A stretch of DNA of 36,462 nucleotides, taken from NCBI GenBank assembly GCA_017396515.1, contig JAFQLV010000049.1, forward strand, positions 1-36,462, read 5' to 3'. Numbering within the stretch: position 1 is the stretch's first letter; every line of letters starts with the position of its first letter. Of the stretch, positions 2,356 to 35,619 are shown in pieces. The notes below the pieces were generated by a model, which did no database searches, had not been told where the DNA came from, and saw nothing but the letters and a program-made list of their open reading frames with translations. The position numbers and the translations under genes are program-made. Source of the DNA: Clostridia bacterium. Its GTDB lineage: Bacteria > Bacillota > Clostridia > Oscillospirales > Acutalibacteraceae.

Positions 2356-4038
2356 ATGAAAAAAACTCTTGCTCTTTTATTGGCAATGCTTATGCTTTTA
2401 GGTGCGGCAGCGATACCGGCATTTGCGGCAACCGAAAAACACGAAAAATGCCCCATTATTTTTATTGCAGGCAGCAGTGTTGATATTTGTGACGCTGAAG
2501 GTAATGTAATTTCAACAGGCTTTGATGTGCTCACTGACGATGATGAAGGTGACATGACAAAAGAGGATATTATGGAAAGTGCCATAAACATCCTGCTTCC
2601 CTTTGTTATTGAAGGTCTGCCCAAGGATAAGTGGGATAATTACGGGGAAGCTCTTTATGAGGAGCTTGCTCCTATCTGGGACGACACTCAGCTTGACGGC
2701 GACGGTAACGCAAAATACGGCACAGGCGTATCAAAGGCTGAAGTTGAAAAGTGGGATAAAAACGCAGACAAAAACCACGGCTCAGACGGAAACTTCAAAT
2801 TGAGAGATTATGATTTCCGCTATGACTGGAGACTTTCACCCTATGACCATGTTGACAGACTCCACGAGTACATAAAGAAAATAATCAAATCAACAGGCTG
2901 CAGCCAGGTTGCTCTTGTGGGCAGATGCCTTGGTGGTAATATCATCACTGCTTATCTTGATAAATACGGCAGTGAAAAGCTCGTTAAAAAGGTTGTATAT
3001 GACGAGGTTATGTCCAACGGCTCAGTGGTTATCAACGATTGCTTCAGCGGCAAGATTGCCTTCAGTGACAAGCATGTTCAGGCATATCTTCTTGAAAGCG
3101 AATATTACGGCAAGCAGGGTGAGGGCATTGACCTTATCGGTGTAAGCGACCTTCTGTTAGAGCTTGCTGAGAGACTTTTTGATCTTCTGACACAGACCGG
3201 TGCCACTCAGGGCATTTTTGACGGAGTTTACAGCTTATATGAAAGACTCTATGAGGCATTTATGCCCGCTATGCTGCGTGCAACAGGTATAGGCACATGG
3301 GTAAGCTATTGGTCAAGCCTTTGCGAAGAAGATTTTGACACAGCTCTTGATCTTATTTTCGGCAAGGAGGGCACACAGACCCGTGAAGAAAATGCAGGTC
3401 TTATTGAAAAAATTGAATTTGTCAGAGAACGCATTGTAAAAACACGCACACTTAAAGGTGAAGAGAACCTTTATAAGAGATTTGAAAGCTACGGTGTGGA
3501 AATCGGTATTATTGCCGGCTACGGTCTTGTAAATCCGCCTATTATTGAAAGTGTTGATGAAACAGGTGACGTTGTTGTCGATGTTAAAAACGCATCCTTC
3601 GGTGCAACAGCAGCAGGCGTATTTGATAAGCTTCCTCAGGACTATATTGACAAGCAGATTGCTGCAGGCAAGGGCAAGTACATTTCACCTGACGGCAAGA
3701 TTGATGCTTCCACCTGTATGTTCCCTGCAACAACATGGTTTATCAAAAACAAGCACCATGACACTTATAATCAGATAAGAGATTTATCAGAGTATTTCAC
3801 TCAGTATTCAAATGTAACAGCAGACTCAAACAACAGAAATGTTTCACGCTTCCTTATCGTTGATAAGAATGATATTGATAAAGCTGTGAATATGACTGAG
3901 GATAATATGGCAGACGGCCCGTGGCTTGATGCTGTTGAGCAGGAGCCCACAAAGGAAACAATGCTTGCTGCTCTTATGAGATTCTTCACAACTATATTCA
4001 AGTTCCTCACGGATCTTTTCACAGGTAAGCTGTTTTAA
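2356..4038 (+). CDS. Secreted LCAT-like alpha/beta hydrolase with Cys nucleophile elbow, 560 aa
   Basis: A signal peptide (MKKTLALLLAMLMLLGAAAI then PAFA|A) predicts export. Residues 150-200 resemble lecithin:cholesterol acyltransferase-type lipases: DFRYDWRLSP (153-162), a helix, then VALVGRCLGGN (185-195). The elbow G-R-C-L-G-G has Cys191 where serine is usual. A catalytic His may be in KHHDTYNQI (466-474). The acid is not obvious; the DE pair in VVYDEVMSN is one candidate. Residues 230-440 form a large helical lid-like insert. The C-terminus (MRFFTTIFKFLTDLFTGKLF) is amphipathic and could bind membrane. The substrate may be a lipid or acyl ester. Cys nucleophiles occur in dienelactone hydrolases of the same fold, so the enzyme may be active, or it may be a degenerate relative. 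It is a monocistronic unit with its own promoter and two terminators. Confidence 0.7.
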   Translation: MKKTLALLLAMLMLLGAAAIPAFAATEKHEKCPIIFIAGSSVDICDAEGNVISTGFDVLTDDDEGDMTKEDIMESAINILLPFVIEGLPKDKWDNYGEALYEELAPIWDDTQLDGDGNAKYGTGVSKAEVEKWDKNADKNHGSDGNFKLRDYDFRYDWRLSPYDHVDRLHEYIKKIIKSTGCSQVALVGRCLGGNIITAYLDKYGSEKLVKKVVYDEVMSNGSVVINDCFSGKIAFSDKHVQAYLLESEYYGKQGEGIDLIGVSDLLLELAERLFDLLTQTGATQGIFDGVYSLYERLYEAFMPAMLRATGIGTWVSYWSSLCEEDFDTALDLIFGKEGTQTREENAGLIEKIEFVRERIVKTRTLKGEENLYKRFESYGVEIGIIAGYGLVNPPIIESVDETGDVVVDVKNASFGATAAGVFDKLPQDYIDKQIAAGKGKYISPDGKIDASTCMFPATTWFIKNKHHDTYNQIRDLSEYFTQYSNVTADSNNRNVSRFLIVDKNDIDKAVNMTEDNMADGPWLDAVEQEPTKETMLAALMRFFTTIFKFLTDLFTGKLF

Positions 4039-5880: not shown

Positions 5881-5915
5881 TTAGGAAAGATGTAAGAGGT
5901 AATAGTGAAGAAGTG

Positions 5916-5936
5916 CAGCCACAGGGCTGTTTTTTT
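5916..5936 (+). terminator. Short terminator
   Basis: CAGCC (5916-5920) and GGCTG (5925-5929) are followed by T7. The stem is small but the T run is clear. It may back up the attenuator hairpin and insulate the DUF3267 promoter. Confidence 0.5.
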
Positions 5937-5962
5937 ATTTGTAAAAAATTTGTATGTTTTTA

Positions 5963-5991
5963 TTGCAAGGGGAAACGGACGGTGCTATAAT
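5963..5991 (+). promoter_or_regulatory. Promoter of the DUF3267 gene
   Basis: TTGCAA (5963-5968), a 17-bp spacer and TATAAT (5986-5991). The ATG at 6010 follows after GAGGTGAT. Confidence 0.7.
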
Positions 5992-6009
5992 TTTAACAGA
6001 GGTGATATT

Positions 6010-6594
6010 ATGAAAGCTAAAGAAAAGCTTCCTGAAGGATATAGAGAAATTTTTAGTGTGGATTTGCAGAAAAACAAAAAGACGGCGCTGCTTATTAATG
6101 TTATAGCTATTGTTATTTCGGTTGCTATGGCGGTACCCGCACACTTTTATATTCCTATAAGCACTCTTTTCGATATGGAAAAGGGAATAGGTAATTACAT
6201 CTTAAGATTTGCCGTTATTATGATTTCAATGTTCGCGTATATAATTTTACACGAAGCAGTGCACGGAATAACAATGAAGTGCTACGGTACAAAGAAAATA
6301 AAGTACGGCTTTACAGGGCTTTATGCTTTTGCAGGCAGCGACGACTACTATGATAAAAGTAGCTATATTGTTATTGCTCTGGCTCCCGTTGTTGTGTGGG
6401 GAATTGTTATTGCCGCTGTCAATGCCTTTGTCAGCCCCGAATGGTTCTGGGTTGTATATTTTCTTCAGATAGCCAATATTTCAGGCGCCGCAGGAGATAT
6501 TTATGTCACGACTAAATTTGCCCGCTTCCCGAAAGATATTTTAGTCAGCGACAGCGGAGTCGGAATGACAGTTTATTCAGCTCAGGACAAATAA
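6010..6594 (+). CDS. DUF3267-type membrane zincin-like protein, 194 aa
   Basis: Putative membrane-embedded metallopeptidase. Helix 1 is about residues 25-45 and helix 2 about 63-82. Helix 2 ends in the zinc motif HEAVHG (81-86, H81/E82/H85), as in DUF3267 proteins. Helices 3 and 4 follow at about 118-138 and 145-165, and the block ANISGAAGDIYV (155-166) offers Asp163 as a possible third ligand, in the manner of M50 proteases. The start at 6010 has GAGGTGAT at ideal spacing; an upstream in-frame start at 5905 would precede the promoter. A 36-aa ORF follows 71 bp on and may share the transcript. Function in this family is unknown. The attenuator-like leader upstream could influence it by read-through. 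Confidence 0.75.
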   Translation: MKAKEKLPEGYREIFSVDLQKNKKTALLINVIAIVISVAMAVPAHFYIPISTLFDMEKGIGNYILRFAVIMISMFAYIILHEAVHGITMKCYGTKKIKYGFTGLYAFAGSDDYYDKSSYIVIALAPVVVWGIVIAAVNAFVSPEWFWVVYFLQIANISGAAGDIYVTTKFARFPKDILVSDSGVGMTVYSAQDK

Positions 6595-6665: not shown

Positions 6666-6776
6666 ATGAGAGAAAAACTATCTAAGCTTCCCACAAACAG
6701 TCCCCTTATAAAAAAGCCTTTTGGAGGACTTACGGCAAATATGCTGATTCTTTATCTGATAAAATATTTCGCATAA
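6666..6776 (+). CDS. Small protein, 36 aa, C-terminal hydrophobic segment
   Basis: An ORF of 36 codons starting at ATG 6666, with GGGAGA 9 nt upstream. The N-terminal half is basic (MREKLSKLPTNSPLIKKPFG), and the C-terminal half (LTANMLILYLIKYFA) is hydrophobic, enough for a short membrane helix. It lies between the DUF3267 gene and a shared terminator, so it is probably co-transcribed with that gene. I do not recognise it. It could be a real membrane micropeptide or the remnant of a longer gene; the good ribosome binding site favours translation. Confidence 0.45.
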   Translation: MREKLSKLPTNSPLIKKPFGGLTANMLILYLIKYFA

Positions 6777-6789
6777 TACATAGTAAAAG

Positions 6790-6818
6790 AAGCTCTCAGT
6801 CGGTGTGGCTGAGAGCTT
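6790..6818. terminator. Bidirectional terminator between the small ORF and the MerR operon
   Basis: AAGCTCTCAG (6790-6799) and CTGAGAGCTT (6809-6818), a perfect 10-bp stem with a 9-nt loop. The minus strand continues into TCTTTTAC, so it can end the leftward MerR operon as well. Confidence 0.7.
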
Positions 6819-6823
6819 TGAGT

Positions 6824-8086
6824 TTACCATTCAAGATTTAAATAGCGGGGACTGAATTTTATGCTTTCGTCTGCATTGAAGTCATAGTAGTGGTAAGTAA
6901 CAATATATCTTACAGTGCTTGTTTCGTCATTATAAGCAAATATAGTATAATAATAACGGGTACTCCAATTTTCTTCCTCGGTGTCTTTATAATAGAGACA
7001 TTGCCAATCGCCCTTTGTTTTTGTAGCGGTGATTTCACCCATATCATTGAGATACTTTTTCTTTTCTTTCTCATATATGCTACTACCAAATGAATTATCA
7101 TCAGGTAATTTCCATTCAGCTATGATTTCGTAAAATCCCTCATCGTCAAGAAAATCGGAACGGTAGTGTTTATAGTAATATTTTGTAGTCTTAGGATATG
7201 TGTCGGGCAAATCAAGAAAAATGCTCAGCTCATGGTCTTCTCTGGCGTTGTAGGGAATGCTTTTCGGCATAAAGTCCTTGACATAATCTCCTATACCGTC
7301 GGTTATCATGTAATCTGCAGGGTCGGTAGTTTTTGAATAGAAATCAGGGTACATAAGGGTGATTATTGATGTATAGCCGCAAACCCAAACTAAAAAAGCC
7401 AAGAAAACGCAAATGAAAAATGATCTTGTCCGTCTCTTATGTACACATTCATTTCTTTTTATGTGTTTATACTTATGAATGATATAAATGCTTATGACAA
7501 TGGCAAGGAAATACACCAGGAACTTTAAAAAGGCATAAAGATCAACTCTTAAGGTGGGGTAAAGAAAACCGTAATTAAAATGTGCGCAAAGCATACAGTA
7601 AAGAGCAGCAACTGCTACCAAGGAAAGTGCGATTGCGGCAAGAAATGTAAAAATGAATTTCTCTGCCTTTTCTGCAGGGGTGAGATTTGTGTCCTCTGCC
7701 GGGACAGATTTATCTGCGGTGAAATTGTTGAGAGCATTGCATATTGTGGTAACATCTATTTTTTCTTTTTCTAAAACAAGCTTCAGGCGTTCAACAGTCT
7801 CACTGTCTGACTTAACCTTTTCAGAAAGTTCGCCTATCATATTACTTACTATATCGGGAGCCTTTGTAATGTCTGAAAAAAGCTCTTTTATCTGAGCTAT
7901 TGAAAACCCTGCCTTTCTCAGCGTGGCAATGTTTTTAAGGGTCTCAACATCATCTTGGGTGAAGTCTATATTTTTTCTGCCTGCATAATTTTCATTGCAA
8001 GAGGGCGACACAAGACCGTTTTCAATATATAATCTGATGGCTCTGTCGGTGAGGCTTGTTTCGGTTATAACATCTTTGATTTTCAT
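6824..8086 (-). CDS. Membrane-bound MerR-family regulator, paralog C (last in operon), 420 aa
   Basis: One-component transcription factor. Residues 1-70 form a MerR-type winged HTH (ITETSLTDRAIRLYIENGLV, then the NIDFTQDDVETLKNIATLRK helices). Residues 75-130 are a charged helix like the MerR dimerisation coil. Three predicted membrane helices (about 145-167, 184-204, 222-246) follow the positive-inside rule, leaving residues 247-420 outside. The outside domain starts with SKTTDPADYM, contains KGDWQCLYYKD and IFAYNDET, and ends in Trp. Residues 1-133 match paralog A except G11S, while the outer domain resembles paralog B. AAAGGAGGTAC precedes the start. It is third in the operon, 27 bp after paralog B, and ends at a terminator. 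The ligand is unknown; I know of no characterised relative with this layout. Confidence 0.8.
   Translation of the reverse strand: MKIKDVITETSLTDRAIRLYIENGLVSPSCNENYAGRKNIDFTQDDVETLKNIATLRKAGFSIAQIKELFSDITKAPDIVSNMIGELSEKVKSDSETVERLKLVLEKEKIDVTTICNALNNFTADKSVPAEDTNLTPAEKAEKFIFTFLAAIALSLVAVAALYCMLCAHFNYGFLYPTLRVDLYAFLKFLVYFLAIVISIYIIHKYKHIKRNECVHKRRTRSFFICVFLAFLVWVCGYTSIITLMYPDFYSKTTDPADYMITDGIGDYVKDFMPKSIPYNAREDHELSIFLDLPDTYPKTTKYYYKHYRSDFLDDEGFYEIIAEWKLPDDNSFGSSIYEKEKKKYLNDMGEITATKTKGDWQCLYYKDTEEENWSTRYYYTIFAYNDETSTVRYIVTYHYYDFNADESIKFSPRYLNLEW
7688..8086 (-). repeat. Near-identical 399-bp head block, copy in paralog C
   Basis: Codons 1-133 here and at 10635-10237 (paralog A) are almost identical in DNA, with roughly a dozen mostly silent differences by eye. 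Similarity stops abruptly after the E-D-T codons. Paralog B shares only the first 63 or so codons (9400 to about 9212). The sharp edges and silent changes point to duplication followed by gene conversion. Confidence 0.8.
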
Positions 8087-8113
8087 AAATGTACCTCCTT
8101 TGTTGAGGGTTAT

Positions 8114-9400
8114 TTACCAGTGAAGCTTTAAATAGTGGGGGAGAATCTCATTTGCAGAATCTACAGGATCCTTAATATTTCGGTTGACATAAATAAAACG
8201 CAGTGTTTCTGTTTCATCGTTATAGGCAAATATTCTGTACTGATACCTTTTTGACCAGTTTTTTTCGGAAGAATCATCATAATAAACACATTGCCAATCA
8301 CCTTTGGTTTTAATTGTTACAGATTCGAGTTCGTGAAATCTCATATTAAGATATTCTTCTTTATATTCGTCGTAGTATTTATCAAAATCAGAATTCTTTT
8401 TATATTTATCAAGGAGCTTCCATTCGGTATATATTTCCGTAAATTCATTACCGCCAAAGAATTCATCAAAATATTTATAATAATACTTTGTGCTATCGGG
8501 ATATGTATCGGGAAAATTGAGCAGTAACCAGGGAATGAAGTGATCGTAAGTTGCATAGTCGTGTATTTCTGTGGGGAAAAAGGATGTGATATCCTCTGAT
8601 TGTGCATGCTTGTCAATTACAAGATAATTTTTTGGTGCTGTGGTTTTGGAGCAGGCATCGGGAACGAAAATTGACCATACAGTTAAAAAGAAAAAGGAGA
8701 TTGACAAAAGTGTAGCGACAACTGTGATTGAAATGTTTTTTGCCAGCCGTTTTTTTCTTTTTATCAGCAGTGATTTTTTGCGATAAGTAAGCAACAGATA
8801 TATGCAGCTTAAAACTACAAAAAGAACAATAAAGAGCCTTAGAAAGAAAAGCGAATTTAAAAGTACAGACGGATACATATAATCAAAGTTTGTTTTGCAG
8901 ATAAGCGTAATATAAAGAACACAGCCGAATATATAAATCAGCCCTACTGAAGCTAAAGCAGTGAAAAAGTATTTTTCAAATTTCTCTCCTAATGTGAAAT
9001 TTATATCAGATGTAGGCACAGCTTTTTCCTCTGTCACACTGTTGAGGCTTTCGCATATGACCTCCATTGTAATGTCTTCTTTTACGGCAACAGCTTCTAA
9101 CTTTTCAAGAACAGCCTTATTGCTTTGGATTTCCTGAGAGGTTTTTTCCATAAACGCCTCTAAGGCTTTTCGGCATGGTTCATCACCGAGGCGAATCTGT
9201 TTTATCTCGTTTATTGAAAATCCTGCCTTTCTCAGTGTGGCAATGTTTTTAAGGGTTTCCACATCATCTTGGGTAAAGTCTATATTTTTTCTGCCGGCAT
9301 AGTTTTCACTGCAGGAGGGCGACACAAGACCGTTTTCAATATATAATCTTATGGCTCTGTCGGTGAGGCCTGTTTCGGTTATAACATCTTTGATTTTCAT
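8114..9400 (-). CDS. Membrane-bound MerR-family regulator, paralog B (middle), 428 aa
   Basis: Same architecture as its neighbours. The MerR winged HTH (1-63) is almost identical to paralogs A and C (N31 is Ser here), but the following helix (64-130, from NEIKQIRLGDEPCRKALEAF on) is quite different, so its dimer interface may not match theirs. Membrane helices lie at about 144-168, 183-205 and 223-247. The outer domain (250-428) begins with SKTTAPKNYL, contains KGDWQCVYYDD and IFAYNDET, and ends in LHW; it is clearly related to the outer domain of paralog C. ACAAAGGAGGTACAAAT precedes the ATG. There are 26 bp to paralog A upstream and 27 bp to paralog C downstream, with no promoter in either gap. 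Sensing role inferred from topology. Confidence 0.8.
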   Translation of the reverse strand: MKIKDVITETGLTDRAIRLYIENGLVSPSCSENYAGRKNIDFTQDDVETLKNIATLRKAGFSINEIKQIRLGDEPCRKALEAFMEKTSQEIQSNKAVLEKLEAVAVKEDITMEVICESLNSVTEEKAVPTSDINFTLGEKFEKYFFTALASVGLIYIFGCVLYITLICKTNFDYMYPSVLLNSLFFLRLFIVLFVVLSCIYLLLTYRKKSLLIKRKKRLAKNISITVVATLLSISFFFLTVWSIFVPDACSKTTAPKNYLVIDKHAQSEDITSFFPTEIHDYATYDHFIPWLLLNFPDTYPDSTKYYYKYFDEFFGGNEFTEIYTEWKLLDKYKKNSDFDKYYDEYKEEYLNMRFHELESVTIKTKGDWQCVYYDDSSEKNWSKRYQYRIFAYNDETETLRFIYVNRNIKDPVDSANEILPHYLKLHW

Positions 9401-9426
9401 ATTTGTACCTCCTTTGTCGAGAGTTT

Positions 9427-10635
9427 TTACCAGTCATATGATGAAACAAGGTTATCTTTCCGAGGTGCACCTTTCAGGGAGGTCTGACCGTAATGACATA
9501 TAAAACGAACACATTTATAAAAATCGTTATAGGCAAAAACAGGTGTATAATTTGAAGGTGCATGTTCGTGTTCATCTCTGTAGAACACAATTGACCAGTC
9601 TGCAAATTTCTGGGTTTCAGGTTCTGTTACACTGTCCGTAGGTTTGAATGTTTTATATTGTTTTATAAATTGCTCATAATCCGCATCATTGAGCCAAAGC
9701 TCAAGATATACTATAGTTCGGGGTGGTTCATGGGATATTTTAGGGTCTTTGTAGAAATAACTGTATTCGGCAGATTCATATTCAGGTAAGCTTTCAGGTA
9801 AAAATTCTGCCAAAGCTTCTTCGGCTTTTTTATCGTCAAAAATCATATAGTTATCAATATCGGTTGTTTTTGAAACAATTAATGCTTCTTCTCCGTAAAA
9901 GTGAAGTGCAGGGATCATCATATTTAAACCAACGGAGCATATTAAAAGAATTACAGCTAAAATAACAGAAGTAACGGCTTTTATTTTCTTAGCTTTTTTA
10001 TTTATATATTTTTTACGGTTATAAGAGAAAATGAAATGCAAAGAAAGAGCTATAGGTATTACAGGAATAAGAAGAAAAATAAATGTAAAAGATTCGTATT
10101 TAGGATAAAGATATGTGCTTAAATCTCTGAATTCAGGGGAGAGAAAGCTGATTAAAAAAGGCAGGTTGTAAATAATCATCAATATGCCGAATGCGGGAAA
10201 AGCTATTCGCAAAATACGGTTAACAAGGCTCGGTTCTGTATCCTCTGCCGGGACAGATTTATCTGCGGTGAAATTGTTGAGAGCATTACATATTGTGGTA
10301 ACATCTATTTTTTCTTTTTCTAAAACAAGCTTCAGGCGTTCAACCGTTTCACTGTCTGACTTAACCTTTTCAGAAAGTTCGCCTATCATATTACTTACTA
10401 TATCGGGAGCCTTTGTAATGTCTGAAAAAAGCTCTTTTATCTGAGCAATTGAAAATCCTGCCTTTCTCAGCGTGGCAATGTTTTTGAGGGTCTCAACATC
10501 ATCTTGGGTAAAGTCTATATTTTTTCTGCCTGCATAATTTTCATTGCAAGAGGGCGACACAAGGCCGTTTTCAATATATAATCTTATGGCTCTGTCGGTG
10601 AGGCCTGTTTCGGTTATAACATCTTTGATTTTCAT
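9427..10635 (-). CDS. Membrane-bound MerR-family regulator, paralog A (first in operon), 402 aa
   Basis: First gene of the three-gene operon. Residues 1-70 are the MerR HTH, 75-130 the charged dimerisation helix, and 1-133 match paralog C except for one residue. Membrane helices are at about 141-166, 183-206 and 218-245, with the basic loop NRKKYINKKAKKIK (206-219) inside. The outer domain (250-402) keeps the entry motif SKTTDIDNYM and the core ADWSIVFYRD/FAYND, and ends in DW. Otherwise it has diverged strongly from B and C and lacks their PDTYPxxTKYYYK segment. AAAAGGAGGTAC precedes the start. The promoter at 10699-10669 has the long spacer and internal dyad typical of MerR-controlled promoters, so autoregulation is likely. 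Family firm; signal unknown. Confidence 0.82.
   Translation of the reverse strand: MKIKDVITETGLTDRAIRLYIENGLVSPSCNENYAGRKNIDFTQDDVETLKNIATLRKAGFSIAQIKELFSDITKAPDIVSNMIGELSEKVKSDSETVERLKLVLEKEKIDVTTICNALNNFTADKSVPAEDTEPSLVNRILRIAFPAFGILMIIYNLPFLISFLSPEFRDLSTYLYPKYESFTFIFLLIPVIPIALSLHFIFSYNRKKYINKKAKKIKAVTSVILAVILLICSVGLNMMIPALHFYGEEALIVSKTTDIDNYMIFDDKKAEEALAEFLPESLPEYESAEYSYFYKDPKISHEPPRTIVYLELWLNDADYEQFIKQYKTFKPTDSVTEPETQKFADWSIVFYRDEHEHAPSNYTPVFAYNDFYKCVRFICHYGQTSLKGAPRKDNLVSSYDW
10237..10635 (-). repeat. Near-identical 399-bp head block, copy in paralog A
   Basis: Partner of the block at 7688-8086. Both encode the HTH, the dimerisation helix and the linker, ending at the same codon just before the first membrane helix. 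The swap point is therefore the domain boundary. Confidence 0.8.
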
Positions 10636-10668
10636 GTTTGTACCTCCTTTTGGTGCTTTGGTACACTA

Positions 10669-10699
10669 ATATTACAGTTTTACCCAAGGTTAATGTCAA
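10669..10699 (-). promoter_or_regulatory. MerR-type promoter and operator of the triple-regulator operon
   Basis: Minus strand: TTGACA (10699-10694), a 19-bp spacer and TAATAT (10674-10669). The spacer carries the dyad TTAACC-ttg-GGTAAA (10693-10679). A 19-bp spacer with a central dyad is the hallmark of promoters that MerR proteins activate by DNA distortion. This is the only promoter I see for the three genes. Confidence 0.75.
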
Positions 10700-33707: not shown

Positions 33708-33736
33708 TTGACAAAAAATGCCGCCAATTGTAAAAT
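33708..33736 (+). promoter_or_regulatory. Promoter of the 619-aa membrane protein gene
   Basis: TTGACA (33708-33713), a 17-bp spacer and TAAAAT (33731-33736). It is divergent from the lacZ promoter, with about 50 bp between the two -35 elements. Confidence 0.8.
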
Positions 33737-33759
33737 TAAGAAAAAAGGAGGAAGATATT

Positions 33760-35619
33760 ATGGATAATATTCCCGAAAACACAAACGAAATAATAAGTGA
33801 AAACACAAATGAAACTGTAGCTGTTGAGGCTCCCAAGAAAAAAAGCAAGACCCTCTTGCTTATAGGCATTTTTGCGGTGCTGGCACTGATTATTGCCGCA
33901 AGCCTTTTTACGGGCGGAAATAAAGATGCGGATAATGACTATATCATAGCAGAGAACAAAAAGGAAATTTATCTTATTGATGCGGCAAACCCCAATAAGG
34001 AGCCGGTGCTCATTGATGAAATAAAAGGTGACTACGGTGCTGCGGCAGAGTATTTTATCAGCAAGGATAAGACCAAGCTTTTATATGCAAACAAGGTGAG
34101 CGAGGATGAAGAAAGCCTTGACATATACTATGAGCTGTGGCTTTATGATATAGCCACAGGTGAAAAAAGCCGAATAGACGAGGGTGTTTATATGCACTGC
34201 GTAAACGAGGCTTTTGATACAGTTACATATTTCAAGGGCAAAGAGGGCGAGCTGTGGCAGAAAAAGCAGGGCAGTGAGCCGGTGAAGCTTTATGACGAGC
34301 TTATGGATGCATGGGTTTCAGATGACCTGCAGACCATAATCTACACAGACGCAGATAAGAAAACATATGCTGTCAATGCAGGTGCAGAGCCTGTGCTTTT
34401 AGGTGAAAAAATTACAGCTATGGACTACAGCGAAAATGCATTTCTCTTTGCTGAAGGCAAGAAGCTCATAAAATATGAAAACGGCGAAAAGAATATAATC
34501 AGCGAAAAATACAGTGAAACGGCCAATATGGGCTATTACGATTATATGGTGGGCTTGGAAGGCGGCTATTTCCTGACAGAGAAGAAAAAAATTGATGTTG
34601 AGGACTGCTTTGTTGACGATATGGAGCAGAGCGATAAAAGCATCAAGGTTTCGGATATTGAAGCTTATGCAGAAAAGCTTGTAAGAGATGCCCTTCGTCT
34701 TGAGCTTGCCGCATCAAAAGAGTGGGGTCTTGCAGTTTGTGACCTTTACTATTATAACGGTAATGAGGCAGTGCCCGTTTGCGAAAATGTTATTGAAATG
34801 TTAGGCGAAGAAGCCTATTATTCCACTGAGGGCAATGACACTGTTGCTGCATATTTTGTGTTGGGTGAATATGAGCTTCCTGAGCTTGTTATGTCAGAGT
34901 TTTATAAAACCTTTGAAGAGGAATATGCCTCATTGGGTCAGGTTTATTATGATGCACTCAAGCAGCAGAGCTCAGTGGGCTTTGCAAAAGAGGGCAAGCA
35001 TATAGGCACTGCAGAACTTGAAGGTGCAATGAGTTATGTTTATGATGAGGCTAATGCCACCGCATATGTGCTGACTCAGACACTTGGCGACGGCGGAGAG
35101 TTTGATTTCATCGACTCATATTACACCGTTAAGCTTTCAGAGGGCGTTTCTGAGCCTGAGCTTTATGCTGAGGATATCAGCAGTGAAATCACTGAGGTTG
35201 TAGACGGTAAGCTCATTTACGGCAAATATGACGATGCAGATGAATATATGTATATCTATAAGGATAAAGAGCTTATTGCAGAAAGAGTTGCATACACCGA
35301 ATGGCTTGAAGAGGATATACTCTATGTCGGTATAGAGGGTGAAAATGAGGATGTTCCCGGAAAGATTTATTCAGCAGGCAGCTTTACGGAGTATGACGGT
35401 ATTGAAAATTATGATATGACCTTTGCCACTGAAGCAGGCAACATAATCTGCTATAATTACGATGACAGCAAGGGCTCAGCGATCTTTGTGGCCAAGGACG
35501 GCAAGCTTGTTTCTGCCGGGGGAGAGGGCAAATATATTGATGTCTATCTTCCGTATGTCTGGGATAACAGATATGAGCTTTCAAGCCCCTTGTATTTAGG
35601 CAGCTTATTCGGTCCCTGA
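33760..35619 (+). CDS. Membrane-anchored protein with large extracytoplasmic beta-rich domain, 619 aa
   Basis: Unknown family. An acidic Asn/Glu-rich cytoplasmic start (1-24) and a basic PKKKSK are followed by one membrane helix (31-50) and an outside region of about 570 residues. This region is rich in short strands of the kind seen in beta-propellers that report values (YIIAENKKEIYLIDAANPNK, YELWLYDIATGEKSRIDEGV, KTYAVNAGAEPVLLGEKI), so a DUF5050/TolB-like propeller fold is likely. It is strongly acidic and Tyr-rich. ATG 33760 has AAGGAGG at ideal spacing and the promoter overlaps the upstream in-frame ATG at 33718. Monocistronic, with terminator. It could be a sensor or cell-wall-associated scaffold; no catalytic motif is seen. 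Confidence 0.65.
   Translation: MDNIPENTNEIISENTNETVAVEAPKKKSKTLLLIGIFAVLALIIAASLFTGGNKDADNDYIIAENKKEIYLIDAANPNKEPVLIDEIKGDYGAAAEYFISKDKTKLLYANKVSEDEESLDIYYELWLYDIATGEKSRIDEGVYMHCVNEAFDTVTYFKGKEGELWQKKQGSEPVKLYDELMDAWVSDDLQTIIYTDADKKTYAVNAGAEPVLLGEKITAMDYSENAFLFAEGKKLIKYENGEKNIISEKYSETANMGYYDYMVGLEGGYFLTEKKKIDVEDCFVDDMEQSDKSIKVSDIEAYAEKLVRDALRLELAASKEWGLAVCDLYYYNGNEAVPVCENVIEMLGEEAYYSTEGNDTVAAYFVLGEYELPELVMSEFYKTFEEEYASLGQVYYDALKQQSSVGFAKEGKHIGTAELEGAMSYVYDEANATAYVLTQTLGDGGEFDFIDSYYTVKLSEGVSEPELYAEDISSEITEVVDGKLIYGKYDDADEYMYIYKDKELIAERVAYTEWLEEDILYVGIEGENEDVPGKIYSAGSFTEYDGIENYDMTFATEAGNIICYNYDDSKGSAIFVAKDGKLVSAGGEGKYIDVYLPYVWDNRYELSSPLYLGSLFGP

Follow-up and report, generated by a model that had tools for sequence, protein, structure and literature searches.

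Three tandem MerR-type regulators with predicted membrane helices and outer domains behind a single operator in a Clostridia genome

MerR proteins are textbook soluble regulators. TipA proteins have been presented as a minimal autoregulated resistance system (PMC7762955), and AlbA as a self-regulatory sponge with an operator in a 19-bp spacer that is reported to be absent from the rest of the genome (PMC10189885). The latter source also describes MerR promoters as typically having a 19- or 20-bp spacer that contains a dyad. Transcription regulators that are themselves transmembrane proteins are likewise a known kind: the survey in PMC10269533 describes more than 100 DNA-binding domains among them and a single helix in 56%, and does not name MerR in its main text. 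Here we describe three consecutive genes, C, B and A, which combine a MerR head with predicted membrane helices and an outer domain. They lie in a stretch of 36,462 nucleotides from a Clostridia bacterium of the Acutalibacteraceae (contig JAFQLV010000049.1). This stretch, called the window below, is one whole contig (G000:C25) of a genome of 1.88 Mb that is 72% complete.

We propose, with a probability of about 0.6, that these genes encode self-inducing transmembrane MerR receptors, similar to TipA and AlbA but placed at the cell surface. The part of the proposal that concerns a self-regulated transmembrane MerR protein is very probable. C, B and A would be three paralogous one-component regulators whose cytoplasmic heads, presumably dimeric as in other MerR proteins, bind one operator within the 19-bp spacer of the operon's own promoter. 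A stimulus at the outer domain would switch this promoter through the usual MerR promoter distortion, and the product of the switch would be almost only more receptor, that is, a self-inducing loop displayed at the cell surface. The outer domain would most likely bind an extracellular ligand and would itself be the output (by capture or protection). That ligand capture is the purpose of the system is a tentative suggestion, with the odds rather against it.

Gene layout, predicted topology and outer domain

The earlier note on this DNA had recognised three consecutive genes, each with a MerR head, three helices and an outer domain ending in tryptophan, and this description holds (Table 1). Each gene has a Shine-Dalgarno-like GGAGG upstream of its ATG and the three proteins share the N-terminus MKIKDVITET(G/S)LTDRAIRLYIENGL. 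All match PF13411 (MerR_1), with 46.2 bits for A (scored without its first codon), 48.8 for B and 54.1 for C against a curated cut-off of 21.6; there are four MerR_1 matches in the genome of origin and three of them are C, B and A. Beyond a linker region (taken as residues 68-135), a hydropathy scan places three helices near residues 144-167, 185-204 and 223-242. The outer domain that follows has 152 (C), 174 (A) or 182 (B) amino acids and ends in tryptophan in all three. The motifs SKTT...Y, (G/A)DW...(Y/F)Y.D and FAYND, also noticed earlier, are present in C, B and A and are conserved in the family.

A scan of genome contigs for the family gave at least 79 loci; the figures given for these loci refer to the matches listed, which include 62 full-length members in 59 loci. 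Three loci (L096, L125 and L132) gave no open reading frame under the motif filter, and 17 open reading frames of at most 370 amino acids were tallied separately. Across 65 aligned family proteins, the three helices chosen all score at least 1.73 in hydrophobicity. Lysine and arginine residues number on average 7.2 in the loop between helices 2 and 3, 1.6 in that between helices 1 and 2, and 0.4 in the 15-residue stretch that follows helix 3. The second loop has more of them than the first in 63 of the 65 proteins, and more than the stretch after helix 3 in all 65. Since positively charged loops mark the cytoplasmic side (the positive-inside rule), this bias places the MerR head inside. The C-terminal domain is thus predicted from hydropathy and charge to lie outside the cell, as had been suggested, and the topology check did not place it in the cytoplasm.

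Clearly, as the topology is based on hydropathy and charge, one can imagine a cytoplasmic C-terminal domain, or hydrophobic segments that are not membrane helices. We consider this extremely improbable in view of the charge bias (63 to 65 of 65 proteins) and because members that lack the head retain the helices. In addition, two other MerR proteins under the same operator, L190 and L192, have a MerR head and three helices followed, at the position of the outer domain, by cysteine-rich repeats. Pfam gives only marginal zinc-finger matches there; we take the repeats to resemble those of secreted BspA-like proteins.

Certain residues of the outer domain are conserved. Y259, Y305 and N386 (A numbering) are invariant in 63 aligned family rows (L080 and L109, near-duplicates, were excluded from these alignments), and the terminal tryptophan is kept in 64 of 65 rows. 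The search with an outer-domain profile that the earlier note had called for was run. Nothing convincing was found for the 63 members in Pfam (best E 0.0015, for one member only) or NCBIfam (best E 0.013), nor in a profile search of the PDB (best E 0.41), and PADLOC gave no match for A, B or C. The closest solved structures by sequence correspond to the head only: CueR (A residues 1-95, E 1.7e-4) and GlnR (residues 6-72). By these searches, the outer domain appears to be unrelated to the families in Pfam and NCBIfam and to the solved structures in the PDB.

Outer domains have a mean net charge of -16 in the 65 family proteins. This acidity was considered as a clue to the ligand and dropped, since two of the 21 other proteins in the window (2356-4038 and 33718-35619) are equally or more acidic per residue. 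The second of these is a 633-amino-acid protein with a net charge of -71, one hydrophobic helix and no Pfam match.

Table 1. Features of the C-B-A operon in the window
Feature	Position	Strand	Description
Promoter/operator of C-B-A	10669-10699	minus	-35 TTGACA (10694-10699), dyad TTAACCTTGGGTAAA (10679-10693), 19-bp spacer, -10 TAATAT (10669-10674)
Gene C	9427-10635	minus	402 aa; MerR head, linker region, 3 membrane helices (predicted), outer domain at 9430-9885
Gene B	8114-9400	minus	428 aa; layout as C; outer domain at 8117-8662; close match to A/C in the first ~189 nt only
Gene A	6824-8086	minus	420 aa; layout as C; outer domain at 6827-7348
Hairpin, putative terminator	6790-6818	minus	directly 3' of the A stop codon, then a short U-rich stretch

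The hairpin behind A (-15.1 kcal/mol, z -5.7, with none of 200 shuffles as good) is a possible terminator that would stop the transcript after A. It was not among the results of a consensus terminator scan.

The operator, its targets and its neighbours

Upstream of C the sequence reads TTGACA-TTAACCTTGGGTAAAACTG-TAATAT, with a dyad within the 19-bp spacer. An alternative -10 (TGTAAT) would give a 17-bp spacer. Judged from its sequence, this is a MerR-type promoter/operator, and it coincides with the regulatory site singled out in the earlier note. A score of at least 16 of 22 against the operator consensus is reached upstream of 60 of 63 full-length genes (62 family genes and C). TTGAC opens all 60 operators, and 58 to 60 of them retain any given letter of the ACC...GG core. 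All 60 also have TA...T at exactly 19 bp, a position not included in the score. Each of the three genes with no operator is the second gene of a tandem pair. In the window, A and B likewise have no site of their own, and C-B-A appears to be one operon under one operator.

As a control, a score of 16 was reached by 7 of 552 other open reading frames in the loci compared with 58 of the 62 family genes. The latter count was obtained with 30 nucleotides past the start searched; with 40 nucleotides it is 59 of 62, plus C, and the difference is presumably accounted for by L092, for which the start was called too early. Of the seven control frames, L088, L122 and L131 are divergent neighbours that read the same operator backwards, one is a subtilase gene (L134) and the others are L062, L064 and L089.

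The operator was then used to search for targets. All 58 sites in the 667 kb surrounding family genes lie upstream of such genes, and in the genome of origin the only exact site is the one upstream of C. A search of that genome for half-operators with up to two mismatches gave 14 matches compared with 8 in a reversed control; six of the other sites were inspected. The 34 genomes of the genus contain 18 sites with at most one mismatch (reversed control, 1), of which 13 stand before family genes, one before a family remnant (L155) and four, each with one mismatch, elsewhere (L150 and L154 were opened, L152 and L157 were not). The 46 whole genomes that contain family members have 44 exact sites (reversed control, 0), 43 of them before family genes: 42 at the genes already fetched and one at a further family gene (L175). 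The remaining site is at a peptidase gene (L174). With a stricter pattern, 394 genomes of the order gave eight sites. Five stand before membrane MerR genes, namely that of the window, L189 (by its coordinates, the family gene L163), L188, L190 and L192. Finally, 18 sites came from 27 further genomes that had been selected for other membrane MerR genes or for earlier matches; 16 of these sites are at MerR heads. These 16 were placed by sequence and coordinates and not all were re-translated, and one genome was counted twice. The other two are at a GH4 gene (L191) and at a subtilase gene (L134).

A number of observations weigh against the proposal of a self-inducing loop at the cell surface. No exact site was found in 8 of the 46 genomes that have family genes. 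Of the order sites, L193 (judged by eye) and L194 (the protein of L031) stand before MerR-like genes for proteins with no predicted helices, and L191 before the GH4 gene. In L174 (G837:C35) the operator precedes a gene for a secreted papain-type peptidase with BspA-type leucine-rich repeats and a lectin-like domain, and in L134 (999-4068) a gene for a secreted subtilase with BspA-type leucine-rich repeats, which adjoins a membrane MerR gene. Diverged operators would escape the search, and so would sites in the missing part of a genome that is 72% complete. The outer part of the 65 proteins shows no depletion of cysteine (1.5%, compared with 1.2% in head plus linker). The linker region of B is 25-26% identical to those of A and C, which are 97% identical to each other, and the pairing of B with A or C is therefore doubtful. 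An internal start yielding a headless product, as in TipA, was sought around residues 100-150 of 65 genes; two overlapping candidates were found in one gene (L123) and the idea was rejected.

No peptidase genes other than those in L174 and L134 were found behind the operator; both encode secreted proteins with BspA-type leucine-rich repeats and they belong to different genomes. From the searches as a whole, self-regulation appears to be the rule and the two peptidase genes notable exceptions. The main rival to the self-inducing loop starts from these exceptions. It supposes a surface sensor with a few secreted-protein targets, in which the important genes are others (secreted peptidases, adjacent transporters) and self-regulation is only the usual feedback. 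Certain neighbouring genes also speak for it: a Na+/H+ antiporter-type gene on the same strand is the 3' neighbour of the family gene in seven loci (PF03553, as checked for L069), and a gene that we take to be LuxS-like is found near the family gene in nine. We nevertheless consider this rival somewhat unlikely, because the extra sites are rare (1 of 44, and 2 of 18, one of these being the GH4 gene already found), because the genome of origin has no extra exact site and because, across the 59 loci listed, neighbours are conserved in small groups only, the largest comprising nine loci. Antiporter-type genes, presumed LuxS-like genes or both stand 3' of the family gene on the same strand in L066-L069, L074, L083, L085, L089 and L103. 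In several genomes, family or headless genes lie near what is presumably a membrane pyrophosphatase gene (G000:C44 around 7676-8419, L038; L155; L060-L062).

Within the window, the convergent neighbour of the operon (5905-6594) matches DUF3267, a putative zincin membrane peptidase, with E 6.9e-25. The MerR head could in principle be released from the membrane by proteolysis, perhaps by this peptidase. No DUF3267-like gene occurs among the recurrent neighbours (groups of at least three loci) of the 59 loci listed, and we regard such release as highly unlikely. Between this gene and A lies a plus-strand open reading frame of 36 amino acids with a possible ribosome site (6666-6776); it was considered as a peptide ligand and set aside, as it has no convincing relative in the fetched loci.

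Tandem copies and distribution of the family

A and C differ at 11 positions in their first 396 nucleotides and then diverge abruptly ahead of helix 1: their DNA is 97% identical in the head and 96% in the linker region but 34% in the helices. B shares only the head with A and C (93% DNA identity). The head of B is closest to those of C and A, but the rest of it is closest to L065 from another genome. The tripling pointed out in the earlier note is not typical: the 59 loci with full-length members listed include only three other tandems, all pairs (L067, L076 and L083). The proteins of these pairs are 98-99% identical in their heads, 74-96% in their linkers, 20-31% in their helices and 38-49% in their outer domains. 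In the four tandem operons together, heads are 94-99% identical compared with 27-49% for outer domains. The corresponding means over all pairs of family proteins are 66% for the head and 33% for the outer domain (95th percentile 48%); some tandem outer domains are slightly closer than this average and others are below it.

The simplest reading of the near-identical tandem heads is recent exchange or duplication of the head. This would allow the copies to recognise a common operator despite their different outer domains. Several ligands could then drive one promoter, and A-C heterodimers are plausible from the similarity of the two linker regions. Of the earlier idea that several external signals are integrated at one operator, the part supported is that one operon stands under one operator. 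Integration at the promoters of other genes is mostly not what the sequences indicate, as the operator is nearly always self-regulatory. A bolder version, which we consider unlikely, is a modular surface-receptor repertoire. A constant MerR head and self-operator would be combined with interchangeable membrane and outer domains. Exchange between tandem copies would hold their heads close to identity, and any one ligand would raise the whole set, which would capture or neutralise the ligands as a membrane counterpart of TipA and AlbA.

A protein search with C gave matches in 21 of 59 genomes (its own included), several of them in the MerR head only. A profile of 15 outer domains found matches in 13 of 34 genomes of the genus and in 3 of 391 sampled from the class, and the profile of 63 rows in 8 of 394 sampled from the order. 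Head and outer domain are fused in 10 of the 34 genus genomes and in one more (G006) the gene is cut at a contig end; G024 and G033 contain headless forms only. Ruminant gut samples are named in 56 of the 79 record titles of the loci listed. With respect to a mobile origin, no relative of C was found in viral contigs and none of A in phages, and a plasmid search gave a single record, a MerR match of 33% coverage.

This patchy presence is what would be expected of an orphan family of little present function, that is, of genes that drive their own expression and are readily gained and lost. The truncated members L119 and L130 also fit, as does the G002 site (L155), where an intact operator is followed by only the start of a family gene. 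We give this explanation very little chance, since the conserved residues of the outer domain and the operator kept at 60 of 63 genes show long-term selection.

The self-inducing receptors that we favour have relatives of two kinds. In the first, the outer domain occurs with no head, either on three helices (in the genome of origin, C44, and in L048, L049, L053-L055, L057, L165, L167 and L168) or on one (L170). The headless protein of the genome of origin matches the 63-row profile with E 6.4e-13. The second kind comprises other membrane-linked MerR proteins from Clostridia-type genomes (L113-L137, L188, L190 and L192) that have a single helix, several helices with no outer domain, or cysteine-rich outer repeats. 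All 17 shorter MerR proteins from the contig scan have TTGAC with a -10 at 19 bp upstream and 16 have at least one predicted hydrophobic segment; their membrane parts differ from those of C, B and A.

Comparison with known systems

The earlier note had taken direct signalling from surface to promoter by this family to be undescribed. This can be kept for the architecture, for which no description was found, but not for the principle, since single proteins that signal from the membrane to a promoter are already known, as surveyed in PMC10269533. No description of membrane MerR proteins was found among the papers listed from the open-access literature (PMC), which lacks most subscription journals, and this is weak evidence of absence. 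What would be new is the MerR version with this outer domain. If the proposal is correct, the concepts of TipA/AlbA and of transmembrane regulators would both be widened to MerR proteins that sense the exterior across the membrane and control almost nothing but their own promoter. As most of the systems consist of a single gene behind a short and recognisable promoter, a reporter strain would allow a direct test of the circuit, which might also provide a biosensor scaffold. A class of extracellular ligands not yet characterised is suggested by the outer domain and by the proteins that carry it without a head.

Similarity to CueR and GlnR, presumably soluble, metal- or nitrogen-linked regulators, is limited to the head: these have neither membrane helices nor an outer domain. 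The other membrane-linked MerR proteins (L113-L137, L188, L190 and L192) have a similar head and the same self-operator, and differ in their membrane parts. ToxR/CadC-like regulators likewise combine, in one polypeptide, a DNA-binding head with membrane helices and a domain on the outside (predicted for C, B and A). The head of C, B and A is however MerR_1 and not a winged helix, with no Trans_reg_C match up to E 1, and they have three helices, in contrast to the single helix given for 56% of transmembrane transcription regulators in PMC10269533.

The closest comparison is with the TipA class (including AlbA and SkgA) as described in PMC7762955 and PMC10189885. In TipA and AlbA the ligand domain of a MerR protein turns on the protein's gene and sequesters the ligand. 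Common to both are the MerR head, an operator dyad in the 19-bp spacer of the protein's own promoter and the confinement, or near confinement, of this operator to the protein's own gene (the exceptions here being L174, L134 and L191). A ligand domain (putative here) also occurs with no head in both, as a second translation product in TipA and as a separate gene here. C, B and A differ in that Pfam gives no match to TipAS (up to E 1), in their three predicted membrane helices, TipA and AlbA being soluble, and in an outer domain apparently unrelated to known families. Since the TipAS domain is absent and the predicted location is the membrane, the family of C, B and A may work like TipA and AlbA, by analogy of logic, without being a member of their class.

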